Source of the DNA: an uncultured beta proteobacterium
GTDB lineage: Bacteria; Pseudomonadota; Gammaproteobacteria; Burkholderiales; Burkholderiaceae_B
NCBI GenBank assembly: GCA_903821335.1
Contig: CAIJKV010000049.1
Coordinates: 1-34,806, forward strand
Direction: 5' to 3'
DNA: 34,806 bases
The notes beneath the pieces were generated by a model, which saw nothing but the letters and a program-made list of their open reading frames with translations, did not search any database and was not told the origin of the DNA. The translations under genes were made by a program, and so were the position numbers. Below are positions 13,565-30,372 of the stretch, piece after piece. Numbering within the stretch: the first letter of the stretch is position 1; each line of letters starts with the position of its first letter.

Positions 13565-13667
13565 TGTTTGATTCCTCAGTCGGCGCACAGCACAGTTGTC
13601 GTTTCCAGATGGAACCGGTTAGGATGACAGACTGGCTGGTACATATAAAAATAAGCAGGGGACATTG

Positions 13668-14672
13668 ATGGGAAATCTTAGGTTCATTCGGTCGTTGCGC
13701 GCAATGGTCATTGCAATCGGGTGTGGGGTGGCCGGGTGTTTGATCACCTTGCCTGGTCTCGCGGCCGCGCAAACCACTTACCCTGACCGCCCGATCAAAC
13801 TCATTGTGCCATTCGCGGCAGGGGGCCCGACCGACATCGTCGCGCGCATCATGGCGCACGGGATCGAAAAAGAGCTCGGGCAATCGATGATCGTTGAAAA
13901 CAAACCCGGTGGCGGCTCCAATATCGGCTCTGAGCTGGTGGCGCGCGCCAAGCCAGACGGTTATACCTTGCTGATTGGCACGATCGCCAACGCGACCAAC
14001 ATGTCGATATACAACGGCCTGCGTTACGACACAGAACGCGACTTGGTGCCGATCACGCACTTCATGTCCTCGCCTAGCGTGCTGGTGGTCAACCCGACGC
14101 TACCGATCACCAACATGAAGGAACTGATTGCCTACGCGCGCGCCAATCCGGGACAGCTGAGTTATGCCTCATCAGGTGCGGGCGGCTCGCCCCACCTGGC
14201 CGGTGAAATGCTGAAGTTGCGCACGGGCATCGATATCCTGCATGTGCCCTACAAAGGGGCGGCTCCCGCGCTGAACGACGTTCTGGGTGGCAGTGTGTCG
14301 ATGGGGTTCATGACGGCAGCCGGAGCACTGCCAAACATTGTCAGTGGCAAGTTACGTCCGATCGCGGTGGCTGGACTGCAGCGGTTGCCACAACTGCCAG
14401 ATGTCCCCACCATGGCCGAAGCGGGCGTGCCTGATTTTGAAGTGAGCTCCTGGAACGGTCTGTTCGCGCCCGCAGGCACACCACCCGAGGTGATTAAAAA
14501 ACTGTCTGATGCCTCGCTGAAGGTACTGGCGATGCCTGGGATACAAAAACAGTTTGAATCGATGGCTTCGGTCGCCGTGGGTGGGTCTCCAGAGGAATTT
14601 AAACAATACGTGCACGCTGAAATTGCCAAATGGGCCAAAGTCGCCAAGGCCGGCAACATCAAGCTCAACTGA
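13668..14672 (+). CDS. Bug/TctC-family periplasmic substrate-binding protein, copy 1
   Basis: Periplasmic solute receptor of the Bordetella uptake gene (tripartite tricarboxylate transporter TctC) family, 334 residues. A signal peptide spans about residues 1-34 with a probable cut after LAAA. The mature protein starts with the family pattern YPDRPIKLIVPFAAGGPTD, and PYKGAAPALNDVLGG, which contributes to carboxylate binding in known structures, follows. The ATG at 13668 follows AGGGGA; a TTG directly before it is an unlikely start. No TctA or TctB membrane genes are present, so this is an orphan receptor, as is common in Burkholderiales. A strong hairpin follows. Ligand unknown; family members bind small carboxylates, amino acids or nicotinate-type compounds. 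Confidence 0.92.
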   Translation: MGNLRFIRSLRAMVIAIGCGVAGCLITLPGLAAAQTTYPDRPIKLIVPFAAGGPTDIVARIMAHGIEKELGQSMIVENKPGGGSNIGSELVARAKPDGYTLLIGTIANATNMSIYNGLRYDTERDLVPITHFMSSPSVLVVNPTLPITNMKELIAYARANPGQLSYASSGAGGSPHLAGEMLKLRTGIDILHVPYKGAAPALNDVLGGSVSMGFMTAAGALPNIVSGKLRPIAVAGLQRLPQLPDVPTMAEAGVPDFEVSSWNGLFAPAGTPPEVIKKLSDASLKVLAMPGIQKQFESMASVAVGGSPEEFKQYVHAEIAKWAKVAKAGNIKLN

Positions 14673-16964: not shown

Positions 16965-17942
16965 TCAGTCTATCTTCGCACCGGAGTCCTGGACCACCTT
17001 TTTCCAGCGATCGATTTCAGTGCTGATCAGCATTCCGAATTCTGCGGGCGTGCCAGTCGTGACGTTAAAGCCCTGGCTGAGCATGCGGTCACGCATGTCG
17101 GGGCGGTTCATCGCCTTGGCGATCTCCGTGTTCAGCTTCGCGATGACTGCACTGGGGGTGCCTGCCGGGACCATCAGACCGTTCCAGACGATGACGTCAA
17201 AGCCTGGAATGCCTGCCTCGGAAACAGTGGGCACATCAGGAAGTGCGGCAGACCGCTCAAGCCCTGTCACGCCGATTGCCTTGAGTTTGCCTGACATCAC
17301 GTTGGGCATGCCCGAGAACATTAAATCCAGCACCAGGTCTGCATTGCCAGCCATCACGTCCGACATGGCAGGCGTGCTGCCCTTGTAGGGGATGTGGGTC
17401 ATCTTGACGCCGGCCGCCGCGTTCATGGCCTCGACTGCAAGATGCGTGGACGCCCCGTTGCCCGCGCTGCCATAGTTAAGCTGGCCGGGTTTGGCCCTCG
17501 CCAGTTCGAGTAGCTCCCGGACATTGTTGACGGGCAGTCTGGGGTTGACCATGACCAGTAGTGGCCCGCTGGTGAGTTGGGTGACAGGTTCGAGATTCTT
17601 GCGGATGTCATAAGTCAGCTTTGGGTAAAGCGAGGGCGCGATGGCCAGGCCCGTGGTCACCAGGATCAGCGTGTACCCGTCCGCTGTGGCGCGTGCCACG
17701 CTGGCGGTGCCGGTGTTGCCTGCGGCACCCGCCTGGTTTTCGACGAAGACGGTCTGGCCCAGTTGTTCGGTGAGCCGTGTCGACAGCAAGCGTGCCACGA
17801 CGTCGTTGGTTCCGCCAGGCGGATAAGGCACCACGATCTTGATCGTTTTGGTCGGGAACGTCTGTGCACAGACGGATGAGGCGATTCCAAGTGCGGCCAC
17901 GCTGGCGGCCGTGATCAACAGTAGGCGTCGAACTGGGTGCAT
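16965..17942 (-). CDS. Bug/TctC-family periplasmic substrate-binding protein, copy 2
   Basis: Second orphan receptor of the tripartite tricarboxylate (TctC/Bug) family, 325 residues. The signal peptide is about 1-26 with cut after SVCA. The mature N-terminus has FPTKTIKIVVPYPPGGTND, and PYKGSTPAMSDVMAG is the conserved ligand-pocket segment. It is clearly paralogous to the copy at 13668 but differs throughout, so not a recent duplication. A cysteine at residue 25 just before the cut site might suggest a lipobox, but the context does not fit one well. It is followed by the acyl-CoA synthetase and divergent from the dienelactone-hydrolase-like gene. Ligand unknown. Confidence 0.92.
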   Translation of the reverse strand: MHPVRRLLLITAASVAALGIASSVCAQTFPTKTIKIVVPYPPGGTNDVVARLLSTRLTEQLGQTVFVENQAGAAGNTGTASVARATADGYTLILVTTGLAIAPSLYPKLTYDIRKNLEPVTQLTSGPLLVMVNPRLPVNNVRELLELARAKPGQLNYGSAGNGASTHLAVEAMNAAAGVKMTHIPYKGSTPAMSDVMAGNADLVLDLMFSGMPNVMSGKLKAIGVTGLERSAALPDVPTVSEAGIPGFDVIVWNGLMVPAGTPSAVIAKLNTEIAKAMNRPDMRDRMLSQGFNVTTGTPAEFGMLISTEIDRWKKVVQDSGAKID

Positions 17943-18117: not shown

Positions 18118-18993
18118 ATGAACAAGCCAAGTCCAGAGTTTGACAGCTTGCTGCCCCCGCTGACGCTGAACCGTCGCGGATTCTTGACAACCACTCTCGC
18201 CAGTGGCTTTACGCTTGCGGCGGGCCCGATCATGGCCCAGACCGTTATTACGACCGATAGCAAAGGGCTGACGGCGGGCGAAGTCAAGATCCCGGTCGCC
18301 GACGGATCGATTCCCGCCTACCGGGCGGCACCTGCCGGCAAGACGAATCTGCCGACCATCCTGGTCATCCAGGAAATCTTTGGCGTGCACGAGCACATCA
18401 AGGATGTTTGCCGACGGTTTGCCAAACTGGGATATCTCGCCATCGCGCCTGAACTCTACGCGCGTCAGGGCGACCCCTCCAAGTACACCGAGAACACCAA
18501 GCTGTTTGCTGAAATCGTCAACAAAGTGCCAGACGCCCAAGTCATGAGTGACCTGGACGCAACGGCTGCCTGGGCCGTGGCGAACGGCGGTGATCCCAAG
18601 CGACTGGGTATTACCGGGTTTTGCTGGGGTGGTCGTATCGTCTGGATGTATTCGGCGCATAACCCCGCGCTCAAGGCCGGCGTAGCCTGGTACGGGCGGG
18701 TGGTCGGCGACACCAATGCGATGCTCAAGGCGCAACCGATCGATGTCACCCTGATGATGAACGCACCCGTACTGGGGCTATATGGCGGCAAGGACGCTGG
18801 CATTCCGGTCAGCAGCCTCGACACCATGAAGGCAGCGCTGGCCAGGGGGTCGGCCGCGGCGCAAGCGTCGACCTTTGTTATTTATCCTGATGCCCCCCAC
18901 GCTTTTAACGCCGACTACCGGCCCAGTTACCACGCGGCCGCAGCGAAAGATGGCTGGAATCAGGCCCAGGCCTGGTTCAAGAAATATCTCTAA
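18118..18993 (+). CDS. Tat-exported dienelactone hydrolase family protein
   Basis: Alpha/beta hydrolase of the dienelactone hydrolase family, 291 residues, about 50 longer than cytoplasmic members because of an N-terminal export signal. Residues 18-23 (NRRGFL) followed by a hydrophobic stretch and PIMAQ form a twin-arginine signal with a cut near residue 40, so the enzyme is probably periplasmic. The catalytic triad is intact: C169 in GFCWGG, D226 in GGKDAG and H261 in APHAF; E86 in QEIFG is also conserved. The ATG at 18118 has a perfect AGGAG seven bases upstream, so the longer in-frame opening from 18004 is rejected. The stop overlaps the tail of the convergent GntR gene by four bases. Substrate unknown. 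Confidence 0.9.
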
Positions 18994-19811
18994 GCGGCTG
19001 GCGGGTCAAACCTGAGCGACATCGAGTACTTCATTTTCTTGTACGGAAATGTCGTGATGGTGACCAGCATCAATGTTTCTTTTTCGCCGTAGTACTTGCG
19101 TGTGATGACAAACCCGGGGGTGCCGGGTTTGACCTTGAGTGCGCGGGCGGTCTCGCCCTTGATGGGTGTGGCTGAAAACTCCTGCTTGACCTCAAGGATG
19201 CGACGACTGAATTTTTGTTCAATCAGCAGCGACAACGGCAGCTTGACCTTGCCCACGTCGCTGCGCACCGCCGAGTAGTCTGGGTGAACATAGACCTCTG
19301 AGTGTGCGACAGGAGCGTTTTGCCCCTGTAGCAACTTGATGGCGATGATGCGCAACCATTCCGAACCGGCAGCGCAACTCAGCATTTCGGCGGTGCGCGC
19401 ACTGACCCGCACCATGCGCACCAGGTTGACTTGCAGCGTTGCGTGCGCAATGTACTGAAACAAATCGGCCAGCTTTGAAATCTGTTGCGTGTAGCGCGTC
19501 GTGGCCCGTGTGGTCTCGACCCGTGTGCCGACACCTGCGCGGCGTGAAACCATGCCGCTTTCCGCCAGCATGCGAACGGCCTCGCGCACGGTGTGACGGC
19601 TGGCATCGTACTGGCGGCAGAGTGCAAGCTCGGGTGGCAGCAACGCGCCGACCGGGTAGACGCCATCACGAATATTTTTGAGCAACGCCTGGTAGATCGC
19701 CTTGTAGCGCGGAGCGGCGGTATCGTCCGCGGGCAGATCGTCGCGCGTGTGCGGGTCGTCGTCCAGGTGGGTTTCCCCATCTGACGCGACGGCTTCAGTA
19801 TGTTTTTTCAT
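18990..19811 (-). CDS. GntR-family (HutC-type, UTRA) transcriptional regulator
   Basis: DNA-binding regulator of 273 residues. An acidic, probably disordered tail (1-34) precedes the winged helix-turn-helix (about 35-100; [16 protein letters not shown], then [17 protein letters not shown] as the recognition region). A UTRA ligand-binding domain spans about 120-265 ([24 protein letters not shown]). HutC-type regulators usually bind inverted repeats with GT...AC ends and release DNA on binding a pathway metabolite. It is divergent from the transporter/oxidase operon, and twin TGTCCGGACA palindromes lie in the shared 153-base gap; both facts make it the likely repressor of that operon. The ligand is probably the imported amine or its oxidation product (inference). 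Confidence 0.9.
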
Positions 19812-19964: not shown

Positions 19965-20996
19965 ATGAGCAAGCTTGTTGCAGTACTGGCGGCCAGCGCG
20001 GTGACGCTGGGTTTGGTGGCTAGCGCATCGGCCCAGCAAAAACTGGTCGTCGCGGGGTACGGTGGTTCCTTCGAAGACATTATGCGCAAGGACATCTTCC
20101 CGCCGTTTGAAAAAAAGCATGGCGTCAAGATTGACTTCGTTGCGGGCAACTCCACCAACACCATCGCGCGGCTGCAAGCTCAGAAGGGTAACCAGGAAAT
20201 CGACGTCGCCATTGTCGATGACGGCCCGATGTACCAGGCCATCGCGCTGGGGTTCTGTGCTCCGATCAAGGGGATGCCGGTGGACGACATCTATGCCACG
20301 GCACGTTATAAGGATGACAAGGCTGTCGGTCTGGGCATCGTCGCGACCGGCATTATGTACAACAAGAAGATTTTTGCCGAAAAAGGCTGGCCTGCGCCAA
20401 CTTCCTGGAAGGACCTCGCAGATCCCAAGTTCAAGCAACTGGTCGTGATCCCGCCGCTAAACAATACCTATGGCCTGCACGCGGTCATTGAGTTCGCCCG
20501 TGAAGGCGGTGGCGGCGAAAAGAATATCGATCCCGGCTTTAAGGCCTTCAAGGACAAGGTGGGTCCTAATGTGCTGGTCTATGAGCCCTCGCCAGGCAAG
20601 ATGACCGAGTTGTTCCAGAGTGGCCAGGCCGTCATTGGTGTCTGGGGCACGGGTCGCGTGAAATCCTTCGCTGACACGGGGTTCCCGGTAGGCTTCGTCT
20701 ACCCGACCGAGGGCGCCTATGCGTTGCTGTCCTCGGTTTGCCCGGTCGCCAAGCCGAATGCCTCGCCGCTTGCCCAGGAATTCGTCAATTACCTGCTGTC
20801 ACCAGAGATCCAGACCATTATGGGTTCTGCCTACGGCTATGGTCCGGTCAACAAGAAGGCCACAGCCAAGGATGACCCCAACGTGCCGTTGCCGATAGGC
20901 AAACGGGCTGCGGATCTGATCGTGGTCGACTGGGACACCATCAACAACAACCGCGACGCCTGGAATAAGCGCTGGACCCGCGAAATCGAACGTTGA
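19965..20996 (+). CDS. ABC transporter periplasmic substrate-binding protein, PotD-like (polyamine/opine type)
   Basis: Periplasmic receptor of 343 residues with a signal peptide cut after ASA23. The mature N-terminus (LVVAGYGGSFEDIMRK) and the following DFVAGNSTNTIARLQAQ resemble the spermidine/putrescine-type solute-binding proteins (SBP family 1), a group that also includes receptors for opines and other charged amine compounds. GGAG lies upstream of the ATG. It is the first gene of the operon after the twin operator and sits 39 bases before the ATPase. The downstream oxidase genes suggest that the cargo is a secondary amine, opine or modified amino acid, but the ligand cannot be read from the sequence. 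Confidence 0.88.
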   Translation: MSKLVAVLAASAVTLGLVASASAQQKLVVAGYGGSFEDIMRKDIFPPFEKKHGVKIDFVAGNSTNTIARLQAQKGNQEIDVAIVDDGPMYQAIALGFCAPIKGMPVDDIYATARYKDDKAVGLGIVATGIMYNKKIFAEKGWPAPTSWKDLADPKFKQLVVIPPLNNTYGLHAVIEFAREGGGGEKNIDPGFKAFKDKVGPNVLVYEPSPGKMTELFQSGQAVIGVWGTGRVKSFADTGFPVGFVYPTEGAYALLSSVCPVAKPNASPLAQEFVNYLLSPEIQTIMGSAYGYGPVNKKATAKDDPNVPLPIGKRAADLIVVDWDTINNNRDAWNKRWTREIER

Positions 20997-21035
20997 GCGT
21001 GGTGGGTGCGTTGCAATGATGTTGCCGGAGACACA

Positions 21036-22097
21036 ATGAGCTATCTCGTGCTGAATAATCTGACCAAACACTACGGTGCGATCCCTGCCGTTGATGGGCT
21101 GAATCTATCCATTCATCAAGGCGAGTTTGTTTCATTGCTCGGGCCGTCGGGCTGTGGCAAGACCACGACCCTGCAGATGATCGCAGGGTTTGTTGAACCA
21201 ACCTCTGGCGGCATTGTGCTCAATGGCAAGGAACTGAACAAGGTTCCCGCCAACAAACGCGGGCTGGGCATCGTCTTTCAGAACTATGCCCTGTTCCCGC
21301 ACATGACCGCCGCGCAAAACGTGGCCTTCGGCCTCGAAATGAAAGGGGTTGGCAAAGTGGAATGCGCCGACCGGGTCGCCGACACCCTCAAGCTCGTTGG
21401 CCTCGCCCATCTTGCAGACAGGTATCCCGCGCGCATGTCGGGTGGTCAGCAACAGCGCGTGGCGTTGGCGCGGGCACTGGTGATCAAGCCAAGCGTGCTC
21501 CTTCTCGATGAACCCTTATCGAACCTGGATGCAAAACTACGCGAAGAAATGCAGCTTGAACTGCGCAGCATCCAGCGCACCGTTGGCACGACCACTGTTC
21601 TGGTCACACACGACCAGACCGAAGCGCTGGCGTTGTCAGACCGGATCGTCGTCATGAATCAGGGTCGGGTCGAGCAGATCGCGGAACCCTACACTGCCTA
21701 CGAAGCGCCCGCTTCGGAATTTGTTGGCGGGTTCCTTGGCAAGGCCAACATCTTTACTGCCCAGCTCGCCCGGACAGCAGACGGGCAGCCGGCCGTGCGC
21801 ATCGCCCAGGCCCTCATCCGTCTGGATGGGTTATCGATTCCCGAGGGCAGCGTGCTGGTTCGCCCTGAAAAAATCATGTTTTCGCCACAGGATGCCGGCA
21901 CGTTGCCCGGCACGATGAAGACGCGGGTCTTCCAGGGCAACCACTGGTTGTGCCAGGTGCAGACCTCTGTCGGCGACGTGCTGGTCATCCGTCAGAATGA
22001 CGGGGTACCGGCACCGGACGAGGGGTCGCCGGTGCACTTGCGCTGGAATGCCCAGGACATGCGCGTGGTGGGGCCGGCGCGTCAGGCAGCCTGCTGA
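21036..22097 (+). CDS. ABC transporter ATP-binding protein, PotA-like
   Basis: Cytoplasmic ATPase of 353 residues with an N-terminal nucleotide-binding domain and a C-terminal TOBE region, as in PotA/FbpC. Walker A GPSGCGKTT is at 36-44, the signature MSGGQQQRVALARAL is canonical, and Walker B VLLLDEPLSNLD and the H-loop VTHDQTEA are present. The C-terminal part has VLVRPEKI, the usual TOBE segment. The ATG at 21036 follows CCGGAG and gives the normal N-terminus; the earlier in-frame opening at 21006 is not preferred. The stop overlaps the next start by one base (TGATG), so the permease is translationally coupled. Confidence 0.93.
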   Translation: MSYLVLNNLTKHYGAIPAVDGLNLSIHQGEFVSLLGPSGCGKTTTLQMIAGFVEPTSGGIVLNGKELNKVPANKRGLGIVFQNYALFPHMTAAQNVAFGLEMKGVGKVECADRVADTLKLVGLAHLADRYPARMSGGQQQRVALARALVIKPSVLLLDEPLSNLDAKLREEMQLELRSIQRTVGTTTVLVTHDQTEALALSDRIVVMNQGRVEQIAEPYTAYEAPASEFVGGFLGKANIFTAQLARTADGQPAVRIAQALIRLDGLSIPEGSVLVRPEKIMFSPQDAGTLPGTMKTRVFQGNHWLCQVQTSVGDVLVIRQNDGVPAPDEGSPVHLRWNAQDMRVVGPARQAAC

Positions 22098-22951
22098 TGA
22101 AGCCGTCTCAAGCACCCTGGCTGCTTAGTGCCCCGGCGCTGGTTCTCTATGCCACGTTCCTGGTGACACCCCTGGCCAGCGTCGTGCTGATCAGTTTTTT
22201 CAACTTTGAGTTTTATGGTGGCATTCAGCTGACCTTCACACTCAAGAACTACCTTGAAATCCTGTCCGATGGCTACTACTACGAAGTGTTCGCCCGTACC
22301 TTTGGCGTGGCGCTTGCCGTCACCATCGCCTGTGTGCTGATGGGGACTGCCGAAGCCTATGTGCTGTCGCGCATGCGCAATCCCTGGAAGGGCATTTTCC
22401 TGATGATCGTCCTGGGACCGCTGCTGATCTCGGTGGTCGTGCGCACACTCGGCTGGGCGCTTTTGTTCGGGTCAACGGGTTTGATCAGTAAGGCCTTGCA
22501 GGCGACCGGACTGGCCTCGGGTCCGGTGAGCCTGATGTACACCAATCTTGGGGTCGGCATCGCGCTGACGCATGTGATGGTGCCCTTTATGGTGATCTCG
22601 GTGTGGGCATCCCTGCAGCGCATCAACCCATCCACCGAAGCCGCAGCCTTGTCACTGGGTGCCAGCCAGTTCACCGTGATCCGCAGAGTGATCGTGCCCC
22701 AGGTCATGCCGGGCATCCTGTCGGGCTCCATCATGGTGTTTGCGATGTCCGCGAGCGCGTTCGCCACACCCGCCATCGTGGGCGGTCGTCGCCTCAAGAC
22801 CGTCGCGACCGCAGCCTACGATGAGTTTCTGAATACGCTGAACTGGCCGCTTGGGGCCGCGCTGGCCGTCATGCTGCTGATCGCGACGATGGTGGTCTTG
22901 CTGTCGGCCAATCGTCTGATTGAAAAGCGCTATGGCGCGGTATTCAACTGA
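22097..22951 (+). CDS. ABC transporter permease, PotB-like
   Basis: Inner-membrane permease, 284 residues, with about six hydrophobic segments starting at residue 10. The EAA-type cytoplasmic loop reads STEAAALSLGASQFTVIRRVIVPQVMPGI (about 176-204), the docking site for the ATPase. It is coupled to the upstream ATPase gene through a one-base overlap, and the partner permease begins 12 bases downstream. PotB-type permeases of the binding-protein-dependent family are typical partners of PotD-like receptors. Confidence 0.92.
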   Translation: MKPSQAPWLLSAPALVLYATFLVTPLASVVLISFFNFEFYGGIQLTFTLKNYLEILSDGYYYEVFARTFGVALAVTIACVLMGTAEAYVLSRMRNPWKGIFLMIVLGPLLISVVVRTLGWALLFGSTGLISKALQATGLASGPVSLMYTNLGVGIALTHVMVPFMVISVWASLQRINPSTEAAALSLGASQFTVIRRVIVPQVMPGILSGSIMVFAMSASAFATPAIVGGRRLKTVATAAYDEFLNTLNWPLGAALAVMLLIATMVVLLSANRLIEKRYGAVFN

Positions 22952-22963
22952 GGATGCCCTGAT

Positions 22964-23767
22964 ATGTTCCTGCGCAATGGTCCGATTGGTCTGGTTTTCC
23001 ACACGCTCTTCATCCTGTTCATTGTCGCGCCCATTGCGATGGTGTGTGCCGTGGCATTTACTGGCGATGGCTTTATCTCGCTGCCCGTCAACGGCTTGTC
23101 GCTACGCTGGTTCAAGGCGATTCTTGATCATCCGCGCTTCGTGGATGCCTTCACCTTCAGCCTGGGGCTGGGCGTGGTGTCCGCGACCTTCGCGATCGTG
23201 ATCGCCATTCCCAGTGCACTGGCGATTGCGCGGTTCCGGTTTCCAGGGCGCGAACCGCTGATGGCATTTTTCCTGTCACCGCTCATGATTCCGCATATCG
23301 TGCTGGGGTTGGCGTTCCTGAAATTCTTCACCTCGATCGGTGTGGCTGGCACCTATTTCGGGCTGGCGGTGGCGCACATTGTGGTGGTGATGCCCTACGC
23401 GCTCAGGCTGGTATTAGCCTCGGCAACGGGCCTTGATCCCTCGCTCGAGCGCGCAGCGCTTTCCCTGGGGGCCTCGACCTGGACAACCTTCCGGCGCATT
23501 GTGTTGCCCCTGATCATGCCAGGTGTCGTGAGCGGCTGGGTGATCGCCTTCATCACGAGTTTTGACGAATTGACGATGTCTATTTTTATCGCGTCGCCCT
23601 CGACGACGACCTTGCCGGTACGCATCTTCCTGCACATCGAGGACACGATCGACCCGCTGGTGACGGCGGTGTCCGCCGCGCTGATCTACATGACCATTAT
23701 CGCCATCTTCATTCTTGACCGGGCGGTTGGCCTTGAGAAATTATTTGTTGGAAAAGGACGCGCATGA
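22964..23767 (+). CDS. ABC transporter permease, PotC-like
   Basis: Second permease of the importer, 267 residues, with membrane segments throughout and the EAA loop LERAALSLGASTWTTFRRIVLPLIMPGV (about 160-187). Its size and order match PotC. The stop overlaps the ATG of the first oxidase subunit by four bases (ATGA), which ties transport and catabolism into one translational unit. With the receptor, ATPase and PotB-like protein the importer is complete. Confidence 0.92.
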   Translation: MFLRNGPIGLVFHTLFILFIVAPIAMVCAVAFTGDGFISLPVNGLSLRWFKAILDHPRFVDAFTFSLGLGVVSATFAIVIAIPSALAIARFRFPGREPLMAFFLSPLMIPHIVLGLAFLKFFTSIGVAGTYFGLAVAHIVVVMPYALRLVLASATGLDPSLERAALSLGASTWTTFRRIVLPLIMPGVVSGWVIAFITSFDELTMSIFIASPSTTTLPVRIFLHIEDTIDPLVTAVSAALIYMTIIAIFILDRAVGLEKLFVGKGRA

Positions 23768-24936
23768 GCGACGCCACAGCAGCAGGACCTTTGCCGCCAC
23801 CGCGGCCCCGACACCATCAGGGTGTCTATGACGCGCTGGTGATAGGCGGCGGTCTGGTGGGCTCTGCCATCGCGTTTGGCCTGCGCCAGAAAGTCGAACA
23901 TGTGGCCGTCCTGGACGAAGGCGACGTTGCCTTTCGCGCCTCGCGCGGAAACTTTGGGCTGGTGTGGGTGCAAAGCAAAGGCATGGGCATGCCAGCTTAC
24001 GGACACTGGACCATGTCATCGCAGCAATTGTGGCCTCAGTTAGCAGGGTTACTCGAGGCACTGACCGGGCTGGACGTCGGGCTTGAGCAGCAGGGCGGCT
24101 TGCACCCCGTGCTGACCGACGAAGAGTACGCTGAGCGAATTAAATTCATGACCGGCTTGCTGGCGCAACCGGGGATGGTGCAGTACGACTGGAAAATGCT
24201 GGATCGCAAAGAACTGGCCGACCTGGTACCCGGGATCGGCCCCGAGGTCCGGGGAGCCACCTGGACGTCCGTCGACGGGGTGGCGAATCCGTTGAAAGTG
24301 CTGCGCGCGTTGCATACGGCGTTTGACCGGCAACATGTCGATTACCTGCCACTGCATCCTGTTGGCGATATTGCACAAAAAAATGGCGTATTCGAAATGA
24401 CGACGCCCCATGGTGTCATTCGCGCACACAAAGTCGTGCTGGCTTCGGGGCTGAATAACCAGATCCTCGGCAACAAGGTCGGGCTGGAGATTCCGGTACG
24501 GCCACAGCGCGGTCAGATTGTCGTACTTGAACGCACCCGACGCATTCTGCGCACGCCCTTCAGTACCCTGCGCCAGATGGAGGAAGGCACCTGGCTGATC
24601 GGAGACTCGCAGGAAGAAGCAGGATACGCGGACGGTATCGTCGGGTTGCCGGTACTGGCCACACTGGCCGACCGGGCAGTGCGCACGATGCCGGCGCTGC
24701 GCGACGTGCGGGTGGTGCGTTCGTGGTCAGCCTTGCGCGTCATGTCAAAAGACGGTTTTCCAATTTATGAGCAGTCGCAGACACATCCTGGCGCGTTCGT
24801 CGCGACCTGCCATAGCGGTGTGACGCTTGCGGCGGCGCACGCACTGCGCCTTGCACCCATGGTTGTCGAGGGCGCGTTGCCCGACGTCATGGCTCCATTT
24901 TCGACTCGGAGGTTTCATGTTCAACAGGCTGCCTGA
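23764..24936 (+). CDS. FAD-dependent oxidoreductase subunit, HcnC/DAO-like (beta-1)
   Basis: Flavoprotein of the D-amino-acid oxidase/glycine oxidase fold, 390 residues. The FAD-binding motif GGGLVG is at 28-33 after a proline-rich tail, and ASRGNFG (59-65) is the characteristic flavin-contact segment of HcnC/opine oxidase beta subunits. HSGVTLAAAHA near the C-terminus completes the FAD site. In known heteromeric dehydrogenases (hydrogen cyanide synthase HcnABC, octopine/nopaline oxidases, D-hydroxyproline dehydrogenase) this subunit oxidises the substrate C-N bond. The start overlaps the permease (ATGA) and the end overlaps the Fe-S subunit by 20 bases, consistent with complex assembly. A second DAO-type gene lies downstream at 26667. 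Confidence 0.9.
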   Translation: MSDATAAGPLPPPRPRHHQGVYDALVIGGGLVGSAIAFGLRQKVEHVAVLDEGDVAFRASRGNFGLVWVQSKGMGMPAYGHWTMSSQQLWPQLAGLLEALTGLDVGLEQQGGLHPVLTDEEYAERIKFMTGLLAQPGMVQYDWKMLDRKELADLVPGIGPEVRGATWTSVDGVANPLKVLRALHTAFDRQHVDYLPLHPVGDIAQKNGVFEMTTPHGVIRAHKVVLASGLNNQILGNKVGLEIPVRPQRGQIVVLERTRRILRTPFSTLRQMEEGTWLIGDSQEEAGYADGIVGLPVLATLADRAVRTMPALRDVRVVRSWSALRVMSKDGFPIYEQSQTHPGAFVATCHSGVTLAAAHALRLAPMVVEGALPDVMAPFSTRRFHVQQAA

Positions 24937-25225
24937 AGCACTGCAGGCTCTTTCACAAAGGCCCGTGGTGGTCACCATCAACGGCGAGGCCGTCCGCTGC
25001 CGCGAAGGCGACAGCGTTGCCGCGGCGATGCTGGCAGCCGGATATTCCGACTGTCGCGATACGCCTGTCAAAGCGGTCGCGCGCGGCCCGTTCTGCCTGA
25101 TGGGGATTTGCTACGACTGCCTGGTCACGATCAACGGGCAACCCAATCAGCAGAGTTGCATGACACCGGTTCGGGCCGGCATGACGATTGAACGCCAGCA
25201 CGGCGCACGTGGGGTGCAGGAATGA
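24917..25225 (+). CDS. Small [2Fe-2S] ferredoxin-like subunit, HcnA/LhpF-like (gamma)
   Basis: Electron-transfer subunit of 102 residues with the Fer2_4-type cluster: C60, C65 and C68 in FCLMGICYDC plus C81. The N-terminal half (VTINGEAVRCREGDSVAAAML) is the usual beta-grasp start. The ATG at 24917 was chosen because CGGAGG lies just upstream and it matches the family start; the longer opening back to 24827 runs inside the preceding gene. The 20-base overlap with beta-1 and the ATGA overlap with alpha mark the three as subunits made together. It probably passes electrons within the complex; the final acceptor is likely the respiratory chain (inference). Confidence 0.9.
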   Translation: MFNRLPEALQALSQRPVVVTINGEAVRCREGDSVAAAMLAAGYSDCRDTPVKAVARGPFCLMGICYDCLVTINGQPNQQSCMTPVRAGMTIERQHGARGVQE

Positions 25226-26670
25226 TTTCAGTCACGCAATGCGAATTGCTGGTGGTCGGCGCCGGTCCCGCGGGCCTGGCCGCGGCCACCACGGCGGCGC
25301 AACTTGGCGTCAACACCGTGCTGCTCGACGAGCAGCCGGCACCTGGTGGGCAGATATACCGCGCCATCACGACGACACCCATCAAAGGCCGCGACATTCT
25401 TGGCCAGGATTACTGGCACGGCGAGTCGCTGATCGAACCGTTCAAACGCTCGGGCGCCCAATACGTGCCCGGTGCCACGGTATGGGCGGTTTCACAGATG
25501 ACTGTCCCGGAGTCGGTGCAAGGGTTTGAAGTGGGCTACTCAGTGGGTGGCCAGGCCAACATGTTGCAGGCCCGGCACATTCTGCTGGCGACTGGGGCGC
25601 AAGAACGGCCATTCCCGATTCCCGGATGGACATTACCTGGGGTCATGACCGTCGGCGCCGCGCAGATTTTGCTCAAGTCGGCGGGCTTGGTGCCTGGTCA
25701 GCGCACGGTTCTGGCGGGATGCGGGCCCTTGTTGTACCTGCTTGCGTGGCAGTATTTGAACGCGGGCATCAAGGTCGATGCCTTGCTTGACACCACGCCG
25801 GCCGGCCGGTTGTTGCGTGCGTTGCCCCACGCCTGGGGGTTCCTGCGGTCACCCTATCTGACCAAAGGCCTGAAGTTGCTGCGTGACGTCAAGGCCAGCG
25901 TGCGCGTGGTACGTGGCGTGACGGCCCTGCAAGCCCAGGGTGACGGCAAGCTCGATAGCGTGCGCTTCACGGCGCAAGGACAAACCGAGACGCTGCCGGT
26001 GGACCAGCTCTTGCTGCACCAGGGCGTGATTCCCAACATCAACCTGTCGCAGGCCATCGGCGTGGACCAGCGCTGGAACGAGCGATTGCTGTGTTGGGAG
26101 CCTGGCGTAGACGAGTGGGGCAATACCAGTGTCGCGCATGTGGGTATTGCCGGGGACGGCGCCGGCATTGCGGGCGCCTTGGCCGCCGAACATCGCGGTC
26201 GTATCGCCGCGCTCGAGGTCGCCATGCAGTTGGGCAAGATCGACCGGGCCAAACGCGATGCCTCCGTGACGCCGGAACGCGTTGCGCTGGAAAGAGCCGT
26301 GCGTGGTCGTGACTTTTTCGAGGTTCTGTACCAGCCTGCCGATGTCTTTCGCTTGCCCACGGGCGACACGGTTGTCTGTCGCTGTGAAGAAGTGACCGCC
26401 GACCAGATACGTGAAACAGTCAAGCTGGGCTGCCCCGGGCCGAACCAGATGAAGTCATTCCTGCGTTGCGGCATGGGCCCCTGCCAGGGACGATTCTGCA
26501 GTGTCACGGTGACCGAACTCATCGCGCAGGAACGGGGTGTGTCGCCCCAGGAGGTGGGTCATTACAGATTGCGCTTTCCGACCAAGCCGCTGACGCTTGG
26601 TGAGCTGGCGGCCTTGCCACAAACCGACGACTCACGCAAAGCGGTCATCCGACTCAAAAAGCAGCCATGA
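25222..26670 (+). CDS. NAD(P)/FAD-dependent oxidoreductase with BFD-like [2Fe-2S] domain, HcnB/OoxA-like (alpha)
   Basis: Large flavoprotein subunit of 482 residues. FAD motif GAGPAG is at 13-18 and a second dinucleotide fold lies near residue 163 (VLAGCGPLLYL). A C-terminal bacterioferritin-associated-ferredoxin-like cluster uses C386 and C388 (VCRCEEV) with C416/C421/C426 (CGMGPCQGRFC). This is the alpha-subunit layout of hydrogen cyanide synthase, octopine/nopaline oxidase and D-hydroxyproline dehydrogenase complexes. It overlaps both neighbours by ATGA, placing it between the gamma subunit and the second DAO-type subunit. All cluster cysteines are intact, so the protein looks functional. 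Confidence 0.92.
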   Translation: MISVTQCELLVVGAGPAGLAAATTAAQLGVNTVLLDEQPAPGGQIYRAITTTPIKGRDILGQDYWHGESLIEPFKRSGAQYVPGATVWAVSQMTVPESVQGFEVGYSVGGQANMLQARHILLATGAQERPFPIPGWTLPGVMTVGAAQILLKSAGLVPGQRTVLAGCGPLLYLLAWQYLNAGIKVDALLDTTPAGRLLRALPHAWGFLRSPYLTKGLKLLRDVKASVRVVRGVTALQAQGDGKLDSVRFTAQGQTETLPVDQLLLHQGVIPNINLSQAIGVDQRWNERLLCWEPGVDEWGNTSVAHVGIAGDGAGIAGALAAEHRGRIAALEVAMQLGKIDRAKRDASVTPERVALERAVRGRDFFEVLYQPADVFRLPTGDTVVCRCEEVTADQIRETVKLGCPGPNQMKSFLRCGMGPCQGRFCSVTVTELIAQERGVSPQEVGHYRLRFPTKPLTLGELAALPQTDDSRKAVIRLKKQP

Positions 26671-27800
26671 CCTCGTCAGCGCATTTAGCTCCGGTCATCA
26701 TCATTGGCGGTGGCTTGCATGGCAGCGCGACGGCCCTGCACCTGGCCCGTGCCGGGGTGCATGCACTGGTGCTTGAAAAAAACTACATCGGTCGTCATGC
26801 GTCAGGGGTCAATGCCGGTGGCGTGCGCACGCTGACACGCCATCTGGCTGAAGTGCCGCTGTCGCTCGCCTCGCGCGCGATCTGGTTGCACATTCGCGAT
26901 TGGGTCGATGACGACTGCGGTTTCGAACAAAACGGTCAAATGCGTGTTGCGGAAAACGAGGCTGATGTCAGGATCCTGGAAGAACGATTCCGAACCATGA
27001 CTGCGCATGGCTATACCCATGAGCAGTTGATCTCGGCCGACGAAGTGCGGGCCATTGCGCCGGCCATTACGCCAACGATCCGCGGTGGTCTGATCGCGCG
27101 GGAAGACGGGTCTGCCGATCCCTATCAGACGACGCGCGCCTTTCGACGCAAAGCCGAAAGCCTGGGTGCTCGGGTCATCGAGGGTATCCAGGTGCGCACG
27201 GTTGCGCGCCAGGGCGCTGACTGGAAAATCACGACAGACCAGGGCGTCTTTAGCAGCCCGGTCCTGGTGAACTGCGCGGGCGCCTGGGCGGACAAGCTGC
27301 CCGCGCAGTTTGGTGAACCCGTGCCACTTGAGGCGGTCGGCCCCATGATGCTGGTCACGACGCGAATGCCGCACTTTCTGGACCCGGTCGTGCTGGGCAC
27401 CGGCAGGCCCTTGTCGTTCAAGCAGCGTGCCAACGGCACAGTGCTGATAGGCGGCGGGCGCCTGGCCTGGGTCGACCGTGACCGTGAATGGAGCGAACTG
27501 GATTTCCGCTCGCTCGGTGAGGGTGCGCGCACCGTATGCGATTTGTTTCCGCATATGGCGCAAGCGGTCGTCAATCGTGGCTGGGCGGGGATCGAGGCGA
27601 GTATGCCCGATGGCATCCCCGTGATCGGGCCAAGCAGCACGGAGTCGAATCTTTTTCATGCCTTTGGTTTCTCGGCGCATGGGTTCCAGTTGGGGCCGAT
27701 TGTCGGCAAGATCACGTCAGACCTGATCACCACCGGCCAGACCGATTTGCCGATTGCACCGTTTTCAATTTCACGATTTCAATCCACTGCGGTCGTTTAG
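26667..27800 (+). CDS. FAD-dependent oxidoreductase subunit, DAO/SoxB-like (beta-2)
   Basis: Second DAO-fold flavoprotein, 377 residues, with GGGLHGS at 14-20 and ASGVNAGG (45-52) at the flavin-contact position, closer in style to sarcosine-oxidase-beta/SoxB proteins than to beta-1. The C-terminal segment GFSAHGFQLGPIVGK is conserved in that group. It is clearly not a recent copy of the gene at 23764, since the two differ in almost every motif. ATGA coupling to alpha indicates that it belongs to the same complex or uses the same alpha/gamma pair. Known relatives have one beta subunit, so having two is the odd feature of this operon. Substrate unknown. Confidence 0.9.
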   Translation: MTSSAHLAPVIIIGGGLHGSATALHLARAGVHALVLEKNYIGRHASGVNAGGVRTLTRHLAEVPLSLASRAIWLHIRDWVDDDCGFEQNGQMRVAENEADVRILEERFRTMTAHGYTHEQLISADEVRAIAPAITPTIRGGLIAREDGSADPYQTTRAFRRKAESLGARVIEGIQVRTVARQGADWKITTDQGVFSSPVLVNCAGAWADKLPAQFGEPVPLEAVGPMMLVTTRMPHFLDPVVLGTGRPLSFKQRANGTVLIGGGRLAWVDRDREWSELDFRSLGEGARTVCDLFPHMAQAVVNRGWAGIEASMPDGIPVIGPSSTESNLFHAFGFSAHGFQLGPIVGKITSDLITTGQTDLPIAPFSISRFQSTAVV

Positions 27801-27832
27801 CTATTGTGACGACCGCCTTTCAGGAGTTTTGT

Positions 27833-28186
27833 ATGCACACGATCATTCGTCAGGATTCCAATGCCCGCCTCAGCCGGGTCGTCATCCACGGAGACACGGT
27901 TTACGTGGCGGGTGTGACGTCAGCGGAACAGGGTGACATCGTTGCGCAGACGCGCGATGTTCTTGCCAAAATCGACGGCTATCTGGCCAGCGCAGGCAGT
28001 GATAAGCGCCATCTGTTGTCCGTCCAGATCTGGCTTAAAAATATCGAGGCAGACTTTGCCGGCATGAATAGCGTCTGGGCCGAGTGGGCACCCGCCGATG
28101 CCTTGCCTACCCGTGCCACCTGCGAAGCCAGGCTTGCGGCGCCTGAACTGCTTGTCGAAATCATTGTGACGGCAGCAAAAAAATAG
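27833..28186 (+). CDS. RidA-family imine/enamine deaminase
   Basis: Protein of 117 residues of the Rid (YjgF/YER057c/UK114) family, which hydrolyses reactive imines and enamines to keto acids and ammonia. The substrate-binding arginine R94 (PTRATCEA) and glutamate E109 (LLVEI) at the expected positions suggest a catalytically competent member. The ATG at 27833 has AGGAG upstream; the longer frame from 27536 is discarded. It lies 32 bases after the beta-2 gene. The 2-imino product of amine oxidation by the preceding flavoproteins is the kind of molecule Rid proteins clear, so its place at the end of the operon is biochemically sensible (inference). Confidence 0.9.
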   Translation: MHTIIRQDSNARLSRVVIHGDTVYVAGVTSAEQGDIVAQTRDVLAKIDGYLASAGSDKRHLLSVQIWLKNIEADFAGMNSVWAEWAPADALPTRATCEARLAAPELLVEIIVTAAKK

Positions 28187-28283: not shown

Positions 28284-28901
28284 TTACAGCGCCTTGGTCG
28301 CCACCATATCCACGAGCGCGGATATGCCCTGGTGACGCGCCCCTTCGCTGAGTGACGCGTCGTACTCTTGCAGCACTTCAATCTTCATGGCGCTAAAGGC
28401 CTCGCGCACGATTGCAGGGGTGTACAGGTTCTCAGCGTCGCCGGGCCCGCCCGTCTTGTACTCAAGTTGCTTGAGGCCATAGCCCTCGAGCAATAGCAGG
28501 CCGCCTGGCTTGACCGCTTGCTGCATGCCGGCAAAGATCGCCGCGCGCATTTTCGGGTTGGCAAACTGGAAAAAGATACCGACGACAGCGTCGAATTGTT
28601 GCGCTGCCCAGTCCCACTCCATGATGTCGCGGGTGATCACATGCAGCGCGACCCCGCGTTCTTTTGCCAGTGCGCGGGCTCTTTCCGAGCCGGCAGGCGC
28701 TGCGTCGACGGACCAGACTTCGCAGCCTTGCTCGGCCATCCAGACACCGTTGCGCCCCTCGCCGTCTGCCACGGCCAGCACGGTCATGTTAGGTTTGAAG
28801 CGTGCACGCTGTCGTTCAAGAAATGCATTGGGTGCTTTGCCAAACAGATAGTCGTCCGAGGCGCGATATCTTTCGTTCCAGTGCGAGATGGCAGGTTTCA
28901 T
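28284..28901 (-). CDS. SAM-dependent class I methyltransferase
   Basis: Protein of 205 residues with a class I methyltransferase core: motif I VLAVADGEGR (41-50), the acidic residue D66 at the end of strand 2, and the post-I/II region EWDWAAQQFDAVVGIF. The N-terminal WNERYRASDDYLFGKAPNAF segment resembles the TehB/thiopurine-like group of small-molecule methyltransferases. The substrate is not identifiable. It is convergent with RidA and divergent from the flavoprotein gene at 29055. There is no evident link to the oxidase operon. Confidence 0.85.
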   Translation of the reverse strand: MKPAISHWNERYRASDDYLFGKAPNAFLERQRARFKPNMTVLAVADGEGRNGVWMAEQGCEVWSVDAAPAGSERARALAKERGVALHVITRDIMEWDWAAQQFDAVVGIFFQFANPKMRAAIFAGMQQAVKPGGLLLLEGYGLKQLEYKTGGPGDAENLYTPAIVREAFSAMKIEVLQEYDASLSEGARHQGISALVDMVATKAL

Positions 28902-29054
28902 CGTGTGTGGTCAGTGGGTGAGTAGGTTCAACGCAAGCAAACCGCCGCCCTGGCGGCTGTGTTCCAATCGGTCAACTGTCCGTCGATCATAAGGCCTTTG
29001 CAAACAGTGCGCATCGTGTTGCGTCAAACGCGCAATTCCCCACAGGAAAATCAT

Positions 29055-30287
29055 TTGTCTACCGTCGCAGTGATCGGAGCGGGTCCGGCGGGCCTCATGG
29101 CAGCCGAAATCCTTGCCAGCCAGGGCGCAACCGTGCGTGTCTTTGAGAGCCAGCCTTCCGCAGGGCGCAAGTTCCTCATGGCGGGCCGCGGCGGGCTCAA
29201 TATTACGCATGCCGAACCCGCCGAACAATTCCTGAAACGCTATGGCGCACGTGCGCCCCAGATGCAGACCATGCTCGGGCAGTTCGATGCCAAGGCCTTG
29301 CGTGAGTGGGTGCACGGCCTGGGAATAGAGACCTTCGTCGGGTCCTCGGGTCGGGTGTTCCCGCAAGAGATGAAGGCCGCGCCCCTCCTGCGTGCCTGGC
29401 TGCACCGCCTGCGCGGGCAAGGTGTACGGTTTTCAATGCGTCATCGCTGGCTGGGCTGGACACACAATCATCAGCTTCGCTTCATGACTCCAGAGGGCGA
29501 ATTGACGTTCGCAGTCGATGCCACGGTGCTGGCACTAGGAGGTGGCAGTTGGTCCAGCCTGGGGTCGGACGGCGCCTGGGTGCCCTGGTTGCAAGCGCAA
29601 GGCGTGGACCTCGCGCCCTTGTTGCCCAGCAATTGTGGTTTCGAAACCCGCTGGAGTCAGCACTTTATTGACCAATGTGCCGGTGAGCCAATCAAGACGG
29701 CCGCATTCTGGGTTGGCAACGCAACCGCTGCGCATGTCCGCGGCGAGTGTATGGTGACGGCGCACGGACTGGAAGGCGGCGTGGTCTATGCGCTGTCGGC
29801 GCCGTTGCGTGACCAGATTCTGTCGCGCGGGCAGGTGACGCTGCATCTCGACCTGCTGCCTGACCATGACGCACAGCGGGTGCTCGATGAAATCTCGCGG
29901 TCGCGTGGCACTAAATCCATGTCGACGCATTTGCGTACGCGACTCGGTCTGCATGGCGTGCGTGCGGCCTTGCTGCGCGAATGCCTGACAGCCCAGACGT
30001 TCAACGACCCGCAAAAGCTTGCGGCCGGGATCAAGGCCTTACCGATCGTTCTGCACGCGTGTCGTCCGATTGATGAGGCGATCAGCACTGCTGGCGGCGT
30101 ACGATTCGAAGGCCTGGACGAACACGCGATGATCAAAAACCTCCCTGGCGTCTTCTGTGCTGGCGAAATGCTCGACTGGGAAGCACCAACAGGAGGCTAT
30201 CTCCTGAACGGTGCCATGGCCACTGGCAAGGCCGCAGCGCTGGGGGTGGCAAACTGGTTATCTGCCCAAGAGCCTGAAAACCAATAA
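29055..30287 (+). CDS. PP_4765/HI0933-family NAD(P)/FAD-dependent flavoprotein
   Basis: Flavoprotein of 410 residues with FAD motif GAGPAG (8-13) and the family signature GRKFLMAGRGGLNIT (37-51), followed near the C-terminus by GVFCAGEMLDWEAPTGGYLLNGAMATG. This matches the uncharacterised PP_4765-type branch (as I recall, TIGR03862) of the HI0933/YhiN proteins. The start is set at the TTG 29055, which has AGGAAA at a good distance and places the Rossmann strand at residue 3; the opening from 28959 would add 32 residues with no similarity. Biochemical role unknown in the family. No operon partner; the next gene begins 85 bases on. Confidence 0.85.
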   Translation: MSTVAVIGAGPAGLMAAEILASQGATVRVFESQPSAGRKFLMAGRGGLNITHAEPAEQFLKRYGARAPQMQTMLGQFDAKALREWVHGLGIETFVGSSGRVFPQEMKAAPLLRAWLHRLRGQGVRFSMRHRWLGWTHNHQLRFMTPEGELTFAVDATVLALGGGSWSSLGSDGAWVPWLQAQGVDLAPLLPSNCGFETRWSQHFIDQCAGEPIKTAAFWVGNATAAHVRGECMVTAHGLEGGVVYALSAPLRDQILSRGQVTLHLDLLPDHDAQRVLDEISRSRGTKSMSTHLRTRLGLHGVRAALLRECLTAQTFNDPQKLAAGIKALPIVLHACRPIDEAISTAGGVRFEGLDEHAMIKNLPGVFCAGEMLDWEAPTGGYLLNGAMATGKAAALGVANWLSAQEPENQ

Positions 30288-30372
30288 AATGCATTGCACT
30301 CCTCGCAAACAACTGCCAGGGTGACTTGCAAATATCGACTATCCACACCCCGATTCCGGAGTCCGTCACGCC

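Follow-up and report, generated by a model that had tools for sequence, protein, structure and literature searches.

Operon structure

The window, i.e. the whole stretch of 34,806 nucleotides that was analysed, carries between positions 19965 and 28186 an operon for a PotDABC-like importer, a first DAO-type subunit (beta-1), gamma, alpha, a second DAO-type subunit (beta-2) and a Rid protein, with a GntR/UTRA regulator in the divergent direction. The placement and order of the genes in the initial annotation are borne out, with open frames in place and Pfam families that match. On the forward strand, the importer comprises a PotD/AgtB/PhnS-like substrate-binding protein (19965..20996; SBP_bac_8, 9.4e-32), a PotA/PhnT2-like ATPase (21036..22097; ABC_tran, 5e-38, and TOBE_2) of which the start is uncertain (GTG at 21006 or ATG at 21036), and two BPD_transp_1 permeases, one PotB-like (22097..22951; 148.3 bits against a PotB cut-off of 348) and one PotC-like (22964..23767; 160 bits against a PotC cut-off of 326). 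The enzyme genes follow on the same strand: beta-1, a catalytic subunit of OpnDH type-1 on the NoxB/OoxB/OdhB1 side (23764..24936; DAO, 2.1e-51), the small OdhC-like [2Fe-2S] subunit gamma (24917..25225; Fer2_4, 6.2e-27), the OdhA/OoxA/NoxA-like electron-transfer subunit alpha with FAD and [2Fe-2S] (25222..26670; Pyr_redox_2, Fer2_BFD and SO_alpha_A3), and beta-2, a catalytic subunit of OpnDH type-2 on the OdhB2 side (26667..27800; DAO, 2.6e-70).

Permease 2 overlaps with beta-1 by 4 bases, beta-1 with gamma by 20, gamma with alpha by 4 and alpha with beta-2 by 4, i.e. the B-C-A order with overlapping genes of OpnDH/Odh is present. The description of the set as all overlapping is correct as far as the four enzyme genes are concerned; the gene of the predicted Rid2-like imine/enamine hydrolase (27833..28186, forward strand; Ribonuc_L-PSP, 1.4e-21) follows beta-2 after a gap of 32 bases. 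Its frame of 117 aa runs from the ATG at 27833, and the mechanical ORF start at 27536 is not the Rid start. The gene content supports the earlier view that uptake, oxidation and imine hydrolysis are combined in a single operon. The GntR/UTRA protein (18990..19811, reverse strand; GntR, 2.6e-18; UTRA, 6.5e-12) is likely the regulator of the operon; it is matched at 52-70% before the operon in five other loci (L077, L078, L087, L098 and L121).

Features of the subunits

Both betas belong to the DAO family (PF01266) with a GxGxxG near the N-terminus, and both fall into published OpnDH classes, beta-1 into type-1 and beta-2 into type-2. In a quick tree, beta-1 groups with NoxB, OoxB and Bradyrhizobium B1, while beta-2 lies on the other side together with Bradyrhizobium B2; the branch that separates the sides has an SH-aLRT of 100, in a tree that has no bootstrap, gave long-branch warnings, represents Bradyrhizobium by strains other than USDA110, and contains no P. 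putida, B. thailandensis, D-HypDH or Hcn sequence. The best solved relative of beta-2 is 1y56_B (8.1e-36), the beta chain from Pyrococcus horikoshii, which sits on the beta-2 side on a very long branch and was entered as sarcosine oxidase; we take 1y56 to be an archaeal, proline-specific L-proline dehydrogenase. Heterotetrameric sarcosine oxidase, which has small soxD and soxG subunits, was considered for the window enzyme and rejected: alpha has 482 aa (964 aa in 1vrq_A) and scores 131.9 bits against a soxA cut-off of 1164, and in a Pfam search none of the operon's proteins matched a soxD or soxG family.

That the two betas carry distinct flavin-contact motifs, as had been proposed, proves to be a real and class-wide difference in the aligned beta rows. 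AS..NAGG occurs in 40 of 46 beta-2 rows and in none of 74 beta-1 rows, while ASRGNFG occurs in 33 of the 74 and is replaced at that position by ASRANFA or ASRTNFG in Bradyrhizobium B1, OoxB and NoxB. The putative FMN motif R-x-W (R319-S-W in beta-1, R304-G-W in beta-2) is kept in the same alignment column in all 76 type-1 rows and all 46 B2 rows.

The gamma motif, C-x4-C-x2-C-x12-C, fits the OpnDH gamma pattern (C-x4-C-x2-C-x11-12-C). In alpha, C386, C388, C421 and C426 are invariant in seven aligned alphas with a spacing of C-x-C-x32-C-x4-C; the printed OpnDH alpha [2Fe-2S] motif, C-x-C-x15-20-C-x4-C (PMC4575208), was not found in the window, but this spacing does not separate the window from Bradyrhizobium, as the alpha of B. 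japonicum SZCCT0148 also has x32 in this stretch. Among solved proteins, those nearest to the Rid protein are PSPTO_0102 (3.5e-30) and PA5083 (1.5e-26), both named Rid2 in PMC5619798, which states that Rid2 proteins including these two hydrolyse iminoarginine made by an FAD dehydrogenase. According to PMC4433059, genes for RidA, and sometimes Rid3, are often clustered with those for FAD amine oxidases. The arginine of PTRATCEA in the window protein aligns with an arginine in PSPTO_0102, and we read it as the probable equivalent of Arg105 of RidA, for which the same paper describes carboxylate binding.

Gene order across genomes

The order B1-G-A-B2 recurs in 13 other genomes (11 of the same genus, 2 of the same family), which is not chance, with identities of 70-80% for alpha, 74-91% for beta-1 (interrupted by a contig end in one of the 13, G001), 70-83% for beta-2 and 63-78% for gamma. 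Within the genus of the window the two betas are constantly co-located; the same lineages retain both, at a similar level of conservation and with no visible decay of either. In a biased sample of 81 alpha loci (including the lead locus of the scan, from Microvirga), B1-G-A-B2 is found in 48, B1-G-A in 32 and G-A-B2 in one. Beta-2 is an optional component, and the two betas do not always co-occur. Either beta can therefore occur with alpha/gamma alone, B2 being absent from 32 of the 81 loci and B1 from one. All nine genes stand in the identical order in 27 of the 81 loci, of which 13 are from Bradyrhizobium, and 42 loci show ATPase-permeases-B1-G-A-B2.

The presence of beta-2 tends to go along with that of the Pot-type importer: the two agree in about seven of nine phylogenetically independent pairs (median p 0.016), a link of which a limited literature search found no report.

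A probable counterpart, already described, in Bradyrhizobium

The initial annotation had recognised no described system with this set of genes, but such a system exists. OdhB1-C-A-B2 of B. japonicum USDA110 (bll7193-bll7190) has been expressed and assayed (Watanabe et al. 2015, PMC4575208), i.e. the gene set was already characterised. Either beta formed an octopine dehydrogenase together with the common alpha and gamma, so that an electron-transfer module used by two catalytic subunits, one of the arrangements suggested for the window, is established for the Bradyrhizobium counterpart (PMC4575208). However, BjOdhAB1C assembled poorly and was about fifty-fold less active, which speaks against two working enzymes, and perhaps, as the authors remark, only the B2 enzyme matters in the cell (PMC4575208). 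With a Km for octopine of 19.5 mM for BjOpnDH2 (L-proline was inactive; PMC4575208), the natural substrate is, even in Bradyrhizobium, probably a compound other than octopine.

The window shares with the USDA110 Odh system the B1-C-A-B2 order, the type-1 and type-2 betas, R-x-W and the gamma cysteine motif. In all 14 Bradyrhizobium loci compared the order is importer-B1-G-A-B2, with a Pot-like importer ahead as in the window and Rid following in 13 (the 14th stops at a contig edge). Identities to Bradyrhizobium are 51% for B1, 54% for A and 52% for B2; with B. japonicum SZCCT0148 (L065), the enzyme subunits are 45-54% and Rid 34% identical. Each of three Bradyrhizobium genomes searched, one of them a named B. 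japonicum strain, holds one such alpha, except for a 30% match within a 998-aa frame of one genome. On these sequence likenesses, drawn from Bradyrhizobium other than USDA110, the window operon is taken as the counterpart of the Odh system. It is a further, mostly ordinary member of a kind of system already known.

Substrate and working of the system

In family and architecture, the operon quite probably represents a flavin-dependent opine dehydrogenase (OpnDH/Odh) organised like OdhB1-C-A-B2 of Bradyrhizobium, and, somewhat less firmly, its substrate class appears to be opine-like. At the protein level, the OpnDH/Odh family is defined by octopine or nopaline oxidation in dye-linked assays and by an alpha4-beta4-gamma4 assembly that contains FAD, FMN and [2Fe-2S]. 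On Ti plasmids, the operons for octopine oxidase (ooxB-fdx-ooxA) and nopaline oxidase (noxB-fdx-noxA) contain the same B1-gamma-A unit (beta-1 being 43% identical to OoxB and 36% to NoxB), but lack beta-2, while P. putida KT2440 OdhB-C-A (PP_4457-PP_4456), a type-1 heteromeric flavin opine dehydrogenase (PMC4575208), has a single beta.

The same two-enzyme architecture could, with a lower though real probability, be fed by import of a D-amino acid, N-methyl amino acid, polyamine or aminophosphonate. The best NCBIfam matches of the binding protein and the ATPase are 2-aminoethylphosphonate importers, all under cut-off (the ATPase reaches 364.4 bits against 457.7 for PhnT2), and D-hydroxyproline and L-proline are substrates of related heteromeric enzymes (PMC4575208). 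The importer is of the Pot type, whereas proven opine operons have the OccQMPT/NocPTQM type, and neither ornithine cyclodeaminase (linked in both Ti operons) nor arginase (present on pTiC58), nor any other arginine or ornithine catabolic gene, is found within the window operon. The host genome's own ornithine cyclodeaminase and arginase genes sit on other contigs of the 408-contig draft. Against a non-opine substrate stand the grouping of beta-1 with NoxB and OoxB, and the RidA-family gene after ooxA on the octopine Ti plasmid, just as Rid closes the window operon. The receptor also points away from it, although ambiguously: the nearest solved sequences to the binding protein are 4edp, agropine permease 6hly and 3pu5, and the Foldseek neighbours listed for its model (mean pLDDT 91.8) include AgtB, AttC, MotA, PotD and GABA receptors. 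Taken together, the solved binding proteins near the receptor include agropinic-acid AgtB and mannopine-type PBPs, but also binders of sugar-phosphate, iron, GABA and polyamines.

How the betas relate to alpha/gamma can be read in other ways as well. A pathway of two distinct oxidations, in which beta-2 works on the product of beta-1, would suit their constant co-location in the genus, but is improbable given that both Bradyrhizobium enzymes oxidised octopine, AB1C weakly (PMC4575208), and that the betas occur singly too. A single alpha-beta1-beta2-gamma complex, with the betas side by side or successive, might be expected from the four overlapping genes and the joint retention of the betas, yet seems very unlikely: in Bradyrhizobium, AB1C and AB2C were purified, AB1B2C was not found, and His-tagged BjOdhB2 did not pull down BjOdhB1 (PMC4575208), besides the loci with only one beta. 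It is hardly credible that beta-2 acts as an oxidase on its own, without binding alpha/gamma. A 49% relative in Pusillimonas (L116) does lie on the opposite strand, near alpha without adjoining it; however, 21 of 22 beta-2 matches (E <= 1e-50, 61 genomes) adjoin an alpha gene and the last is a contig-edge fragment, there are G-A-B2 clusters without beta-1 (L071, L194-L196, L202 and L203, the last with only ~2.5 kb of contig upstream), and purified OdhAB2C largely refutes this reading (PMC4575208).

In the favoured opine dehydrogenase reading, the importer would take up an opine-like secondary amine (an N-carboxyalkyl amino acid), and by analogy with Bradyrhizobium beta-1 or beta-2 would dock on the common alpha-gamma module, giving alternative alpha-beta1-gamma and alpha-beta2-gamma enzymes. 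The FAD of the beta would oxidise the C-N bond to an imine, and the electrons may pass via FMN between alpha and beta and then the cofactors of alpha and gamma to an acceptor other than NAD(P) or oxygen, a path that was shown in P. putida and reported to be similar for Bradyrhizobium (PMC4575208). The imine would then yield an amino acid and a 2-oxo acid, presumably assisted by the Rid2-like protein.

Beta-2 probably serves the compound delivered by the Pot-type importer. More tentatively, beta-2 might be no spare part but a substrate-dedicated catalytic subunit, co-inherited with this importer and added to an alpha/gamma/beta-1 module for the oxidation of opines in general, such that the family changes its diet by a joint swap of importer and beta; the shared natural substrate would then be some opine-like compound from soil and water that has yet to be described, not crown-gall octopine. 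As beta-2 is tied to a defined importer, the question of the natural substrate becomes directly testable via the binding protein. The published arrangement, in which two catalytic betas share an electron-transfer module, is thus found repeatedly in both alpha- and betaproteobacteria, with 48 of the 81 alpha loci of the biased sample.

Subunit composition and relation to a described system

The window carries, as open frames on the forward strand, the genes of a PotDABC-like (Pot-type) importer, i.e. a substrate-binding protein (19965-20996), an ATPase (21036-22097), permease 1 (22097-22951) and permease 2 (22964-23767), followed by the DAO-type subunit beta-1 (B1, 23764-24936), the [2Fe-2S] subunit gamma (G, 24917-25225), alpha (A, 25222-26670), the other DAO-type subunit beta-2 (B2, 26667-27800) and a Rid protein (27833-28186). 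The four enzyme genes share 4-20 bases from one to the next, 32 bases lie between beta-2 and the Rid gene, and a GntR/UTRA regulator (18990-19811, reverse strand) is divergent from the operon. The open frames bear out the gene set that the initial annotation had read; its claim of novelty, no described system with this set having been recognised, fails, and the operon is a further case of a described two-beta kind. Literature searches for the set of four genes, also by locus tag and by name, led to the flavin opine dehydrogenase genes OdhB1-C-A-B2 (C being gamma) of Bradyrhizobium japonicum USDA110 (bll7193, bll7192, bll7191 and bll7190), which have been described and assayed (Watanabe et al. 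2015, PMC4575208).

Among the best 80 of 584 candidates from one contig scan with a Microvirga alpha as query, all 14 loci titled Bradyrhizobium have the order importer-B1-G-A-B2, with Rid also present in 13; the 14th (L051) ends 68 bases past beta-2. The locus of B. japonicum SZCCT0148 (L065) is 61% identical to the window in the binding protein, 61% in the ATPase, 57 and 61% in the permeases, 51% in beta-1, 45% in gamma, 54% in alpha, 52% in beta-2 and 34% in Rid. Each of the three Bradyrhizobium genomes searched has one alpha of the Odh kind, one of them with an extra 30% alpha match in a 998-aa frame, sized like sarcosine oxidase alpha. Since the comparison ran through other Bradyrhizobium loci rather than the USDA110 sequence itself, we strongly infer that the published cluster is the ortholog of the window operon. 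A locus recorded as Frankia sp. RB7 (L052) has the Bradyrhizobium gene order and an alpha 76% like the Microvirga one, the same closeness as Bradyrhizobium alphas, and is possibly a mislabelled Bradyrhizobium.

For the two betas, a four-subunit complex or one electron-transfer module serving two substrates or two successive oxidations had been proposed. The published Bradyrhizobium experiments bear this out by half, speaking for alternative enzymes on one shared module and against the complex. Tagged OdhB1 or OdhB2 each brought down the common alpha and gamma, with FAD and FMN bound, and upon expression of all four genes B1 was not retained by tagged B2 (PMC4575208), for which reason the alpha-beta1-beta2-gamma complex was set aside. 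Successive oxidations by beta-1 and then beta-2 were also considered and set aside. The same paper proposes subunit exchange and defines type-1 and type-2 betas, the latter near archaeal L-proline dehydrogenase. Octopine was oxidised by both Bradyrhizobium enzymes, at 0.504 units/mg (Km 19.5 mM) by AB2C and at 0.0095 units/mg by AB1C, and both nopaline activities were <0.001. The AB1C preparation was mostly free B1, and the authors suggest that, with alpha and gamma favouring B2, perhaps the B2 enzyme alone has a role in the cell. One sentence in the results of PMC4575208 puts the nopaline efficiency 11,000-fold below that for octopine, whereas the values alongside show nopaline higher, seemingly a mistake in phrasing.

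The weak activity of BjOdhAB1C gave rise to the idea that beta-1 is decaying and that beta-2 is the working subunit, but pairwise identities of beta-1 versus beta-2 within five groups show no such decay, and the idea was rejected. Beta-1 is the more conserved in 27/28 pairs from within the window genus, in 3/3 pairs of the Aurantimonas/Aureimonas group, in 34/78 of the Bradyrhizobium/Microvirga/Methylobacterium group, in 7/21 of the Achromobacter/Bordetella group and in 0/6 of the Bosea/Microvirga group.

A quick tree of 123 betas (which left out 23 loci, i.e. closely related Bradyrhizobium, Rhizobium and Reyranella and five window-genus loci, as well as betas of <75% coverage) places beta-1 of the window with Bradyrhizobium B1 and with the nopaline and octopine oxidase betas of Ti plasmids, NoxB and OoxB (76 rows). 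Beta-2 groups with Bradyrhizobium B2 across a long branch (SH-aLRT 100, no bootstrap), and the solved Pyrococcus horikoshii beta 1y56_B joins this side on a very long branch; long branches (NoxB, OoxB, 1y56_B) came with warnings. All 76 type-1 rows (74 B1 plus NoxB and OoxB) and all 46 B2 rows have R-x-W at this column. The cysteine motif of gamma agrees with that published. In alpha, the cysteines read C-x-C-x32-C-x4-C versus the printed x15-20, and the SZCCT0148 alpha likewise has x32.

Distribution of the two betas

That both betas always co-occur does not hold in a wider sample. Among 81 alpha chains (from the best 80 of 584 candidates, and therefore a biased sample, with the Microvirga query locus included), B1-G-A-B2 is found in 48, ATPase-P1-P2-B1-G-A-B2 (P1 and P2 being the permeases) in 42 and the full order from binding protein to Rid in 27, as opposed to B1-G-A without B2 in 32 and G-A-B2 in one. 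These counts are without L180, L181 and L183, whose contigs have the lengths of L074, L077 and L086, and without L035, which covers the region of L045; both L075 and L185, seemingly one contig, were kept. In the sets counted here, G-A-B2 without B1 was seen in four chains (the second cluster of L071, L194, L195 and L196), three of which carry their own Pot-like importer and binding protein.

Close to the window, B1-G-A-B2 surrounds an alpha of >=70% identity in 13 further genomes of the 61 nearest (11/31 of the same genus and 2/5 of the same family), and no readable locus with such an alpha lacks either beta; beta-1 is cut by a contig end in G001, and genes are split by contig ends in G007 and G027. 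Of seven distant loci with room on both sides (alpha about 45-48%; L018, L020, L021, L022, L024, L030, L032), six have B1-G-A without B2. Beta-2 as a stand-alone oxidase in relatives was set aside: matches at E <= 1e-50 occur at 22 places in 17/61 genomes, 21 of them adjoining an alpha and one being a contig-edge fragment.

Association of beta-2 with the importer

In the alpha tree (a quick tree of 89 rows, 15 loci left out), beta-2 stands beside alpha in 54 rows, is absent in 33 and is of unclear state in 2. For the association test, 78 rows were used (without four G-A-B2-only rows and rows of unread state), and the importer was scored as present when each of the two permeases and the ATPase matched at >=40% anywhere in the locus, or when a permease was in the chain. 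Beta-2 and importer are both present in 43 rows and both absent in 24, with the importer alone in 8 and beta-2 alone in 3. Nine phylogenetically independent pairs (starred branches) gave about 7.0 concordant, 0.4 opposite and 1.6 without difference (median p 0.016, range 0.008-0.125). Links of Rid with beta-2 (median p 0.375) or with the importer (median p 0.25) were not significant in such pairs. Judging from gene content, it seems that beta-2 goes with the Pot-type importer, the association being modest; a limited literature search found no paper stating it, and it may be new.

Eleven loci drawn from 369 genomes of the class form a second set, which may overlap the first. Its clusters with B1 have both beta-2 and importer in two cases (L200, L204) and neither in six. 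In L201 the importer is present and the contig ends where B2 would be. A strict rule is opposed by L202 and L203, where G-A-B2 stands without B1 and no Pot-type importer is in view (although the L203 contig extends just some 2.5 kb upstream). Both loci also show, next to gamma, a weak ornithine-cyclodeaminase-like match (26-27%), and their beta-2 is 50-53% like that of the window.

Among 28 beta-2-less loci inspected, a Bug-type receptor is in view at 13 (Cupriavidus, Schauerella, Roseococcus and others), which may be background, since Bug genes are common and two lie in the window; other importers are OccT-type in one (L072) and Opp-type in one (L090). On the Azospirillum lipoferum plasmid AZO_p2 (L034:11397-12538), B1-G-A-B2-Rid is followed by an OccT-like receptor (42%) and a second Rid, with a Pot-type importer on the opposite strand, i.e. 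two receptor types at one cluster.

Possible substrate

The natural substrate is probably an opine-like N-carboxyalkyl amino acid. The receptor belongs to the PotD/AgtB/PhnS group, with 4edp, the agropine permease 6hly and 3pu5 as nearest solved sequences. Its confidently predicted structure (mean pLDDT 91.8, from 28 sequences) does not point to one ligand, because the 50 Foldseek matches listed include proteins that bind sugar phosphates, iron, agropinic acid or mannopine, as well as receptors for GABA and for polyamines such as spermidine. NCBIfam aminoethylphosphonate-importer matches are below cut-off, that of the receptor far below. Among the printed clusters of 1808 neighbouring ORFs (mostly judged by eye, many long ORFs resembling antisense artefacts), no recurrent catabolic neighbour names a substrate, only regulators, generic transporters and local synteny being found. 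Other contigs of the window's genome hold two arginase-family genes and one ornithine-cyclodeaminase-family gene.

Rid protein and surroundings

Among solved proteins, the window Rid is nearest to PSPTO_0102 and PA5083, both of them Rid2 proteins active on the iminoarginine that the FAD enzyme DauA releases (PMC5619798). RidA, and sometimes Rid3, genes cluster with FAD amine oxidases (PMC4433059), and in the octopine catabolic operon of the octopine Ti plasmid ooxA is followed by a RidA-family gene, ahead of ocd (NC_002377.1, L044:2901-3206). Given this clustering, the Rid2 action and the ooxA neighbour, the Rid part of the operon is expected rather than new. The words RidA and YjgF are absent from the main text of PMC4575208, the literature search gave no report of importer and Rid combined, and the available text of PMC10745273, on opine use by crown-gall isolates, has 0 occurrences of putrescine or RidA.

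Downstream of the operon, and outside it, the window has a methyltransferase, an HI0933-like flavoprotein and a GMC oxidoreductase (28284-31992); in relatives, too, a cluster of HI0933-like flavoprotein genes comes after the operon. Elsewhere in the window, TctC (Bug-type) receptors (13665-14672 and 16965-17942) stand either side of a CoA-ligase-like gene (14745-16865, ATP-grasp_5/Succ_CoA_lig).
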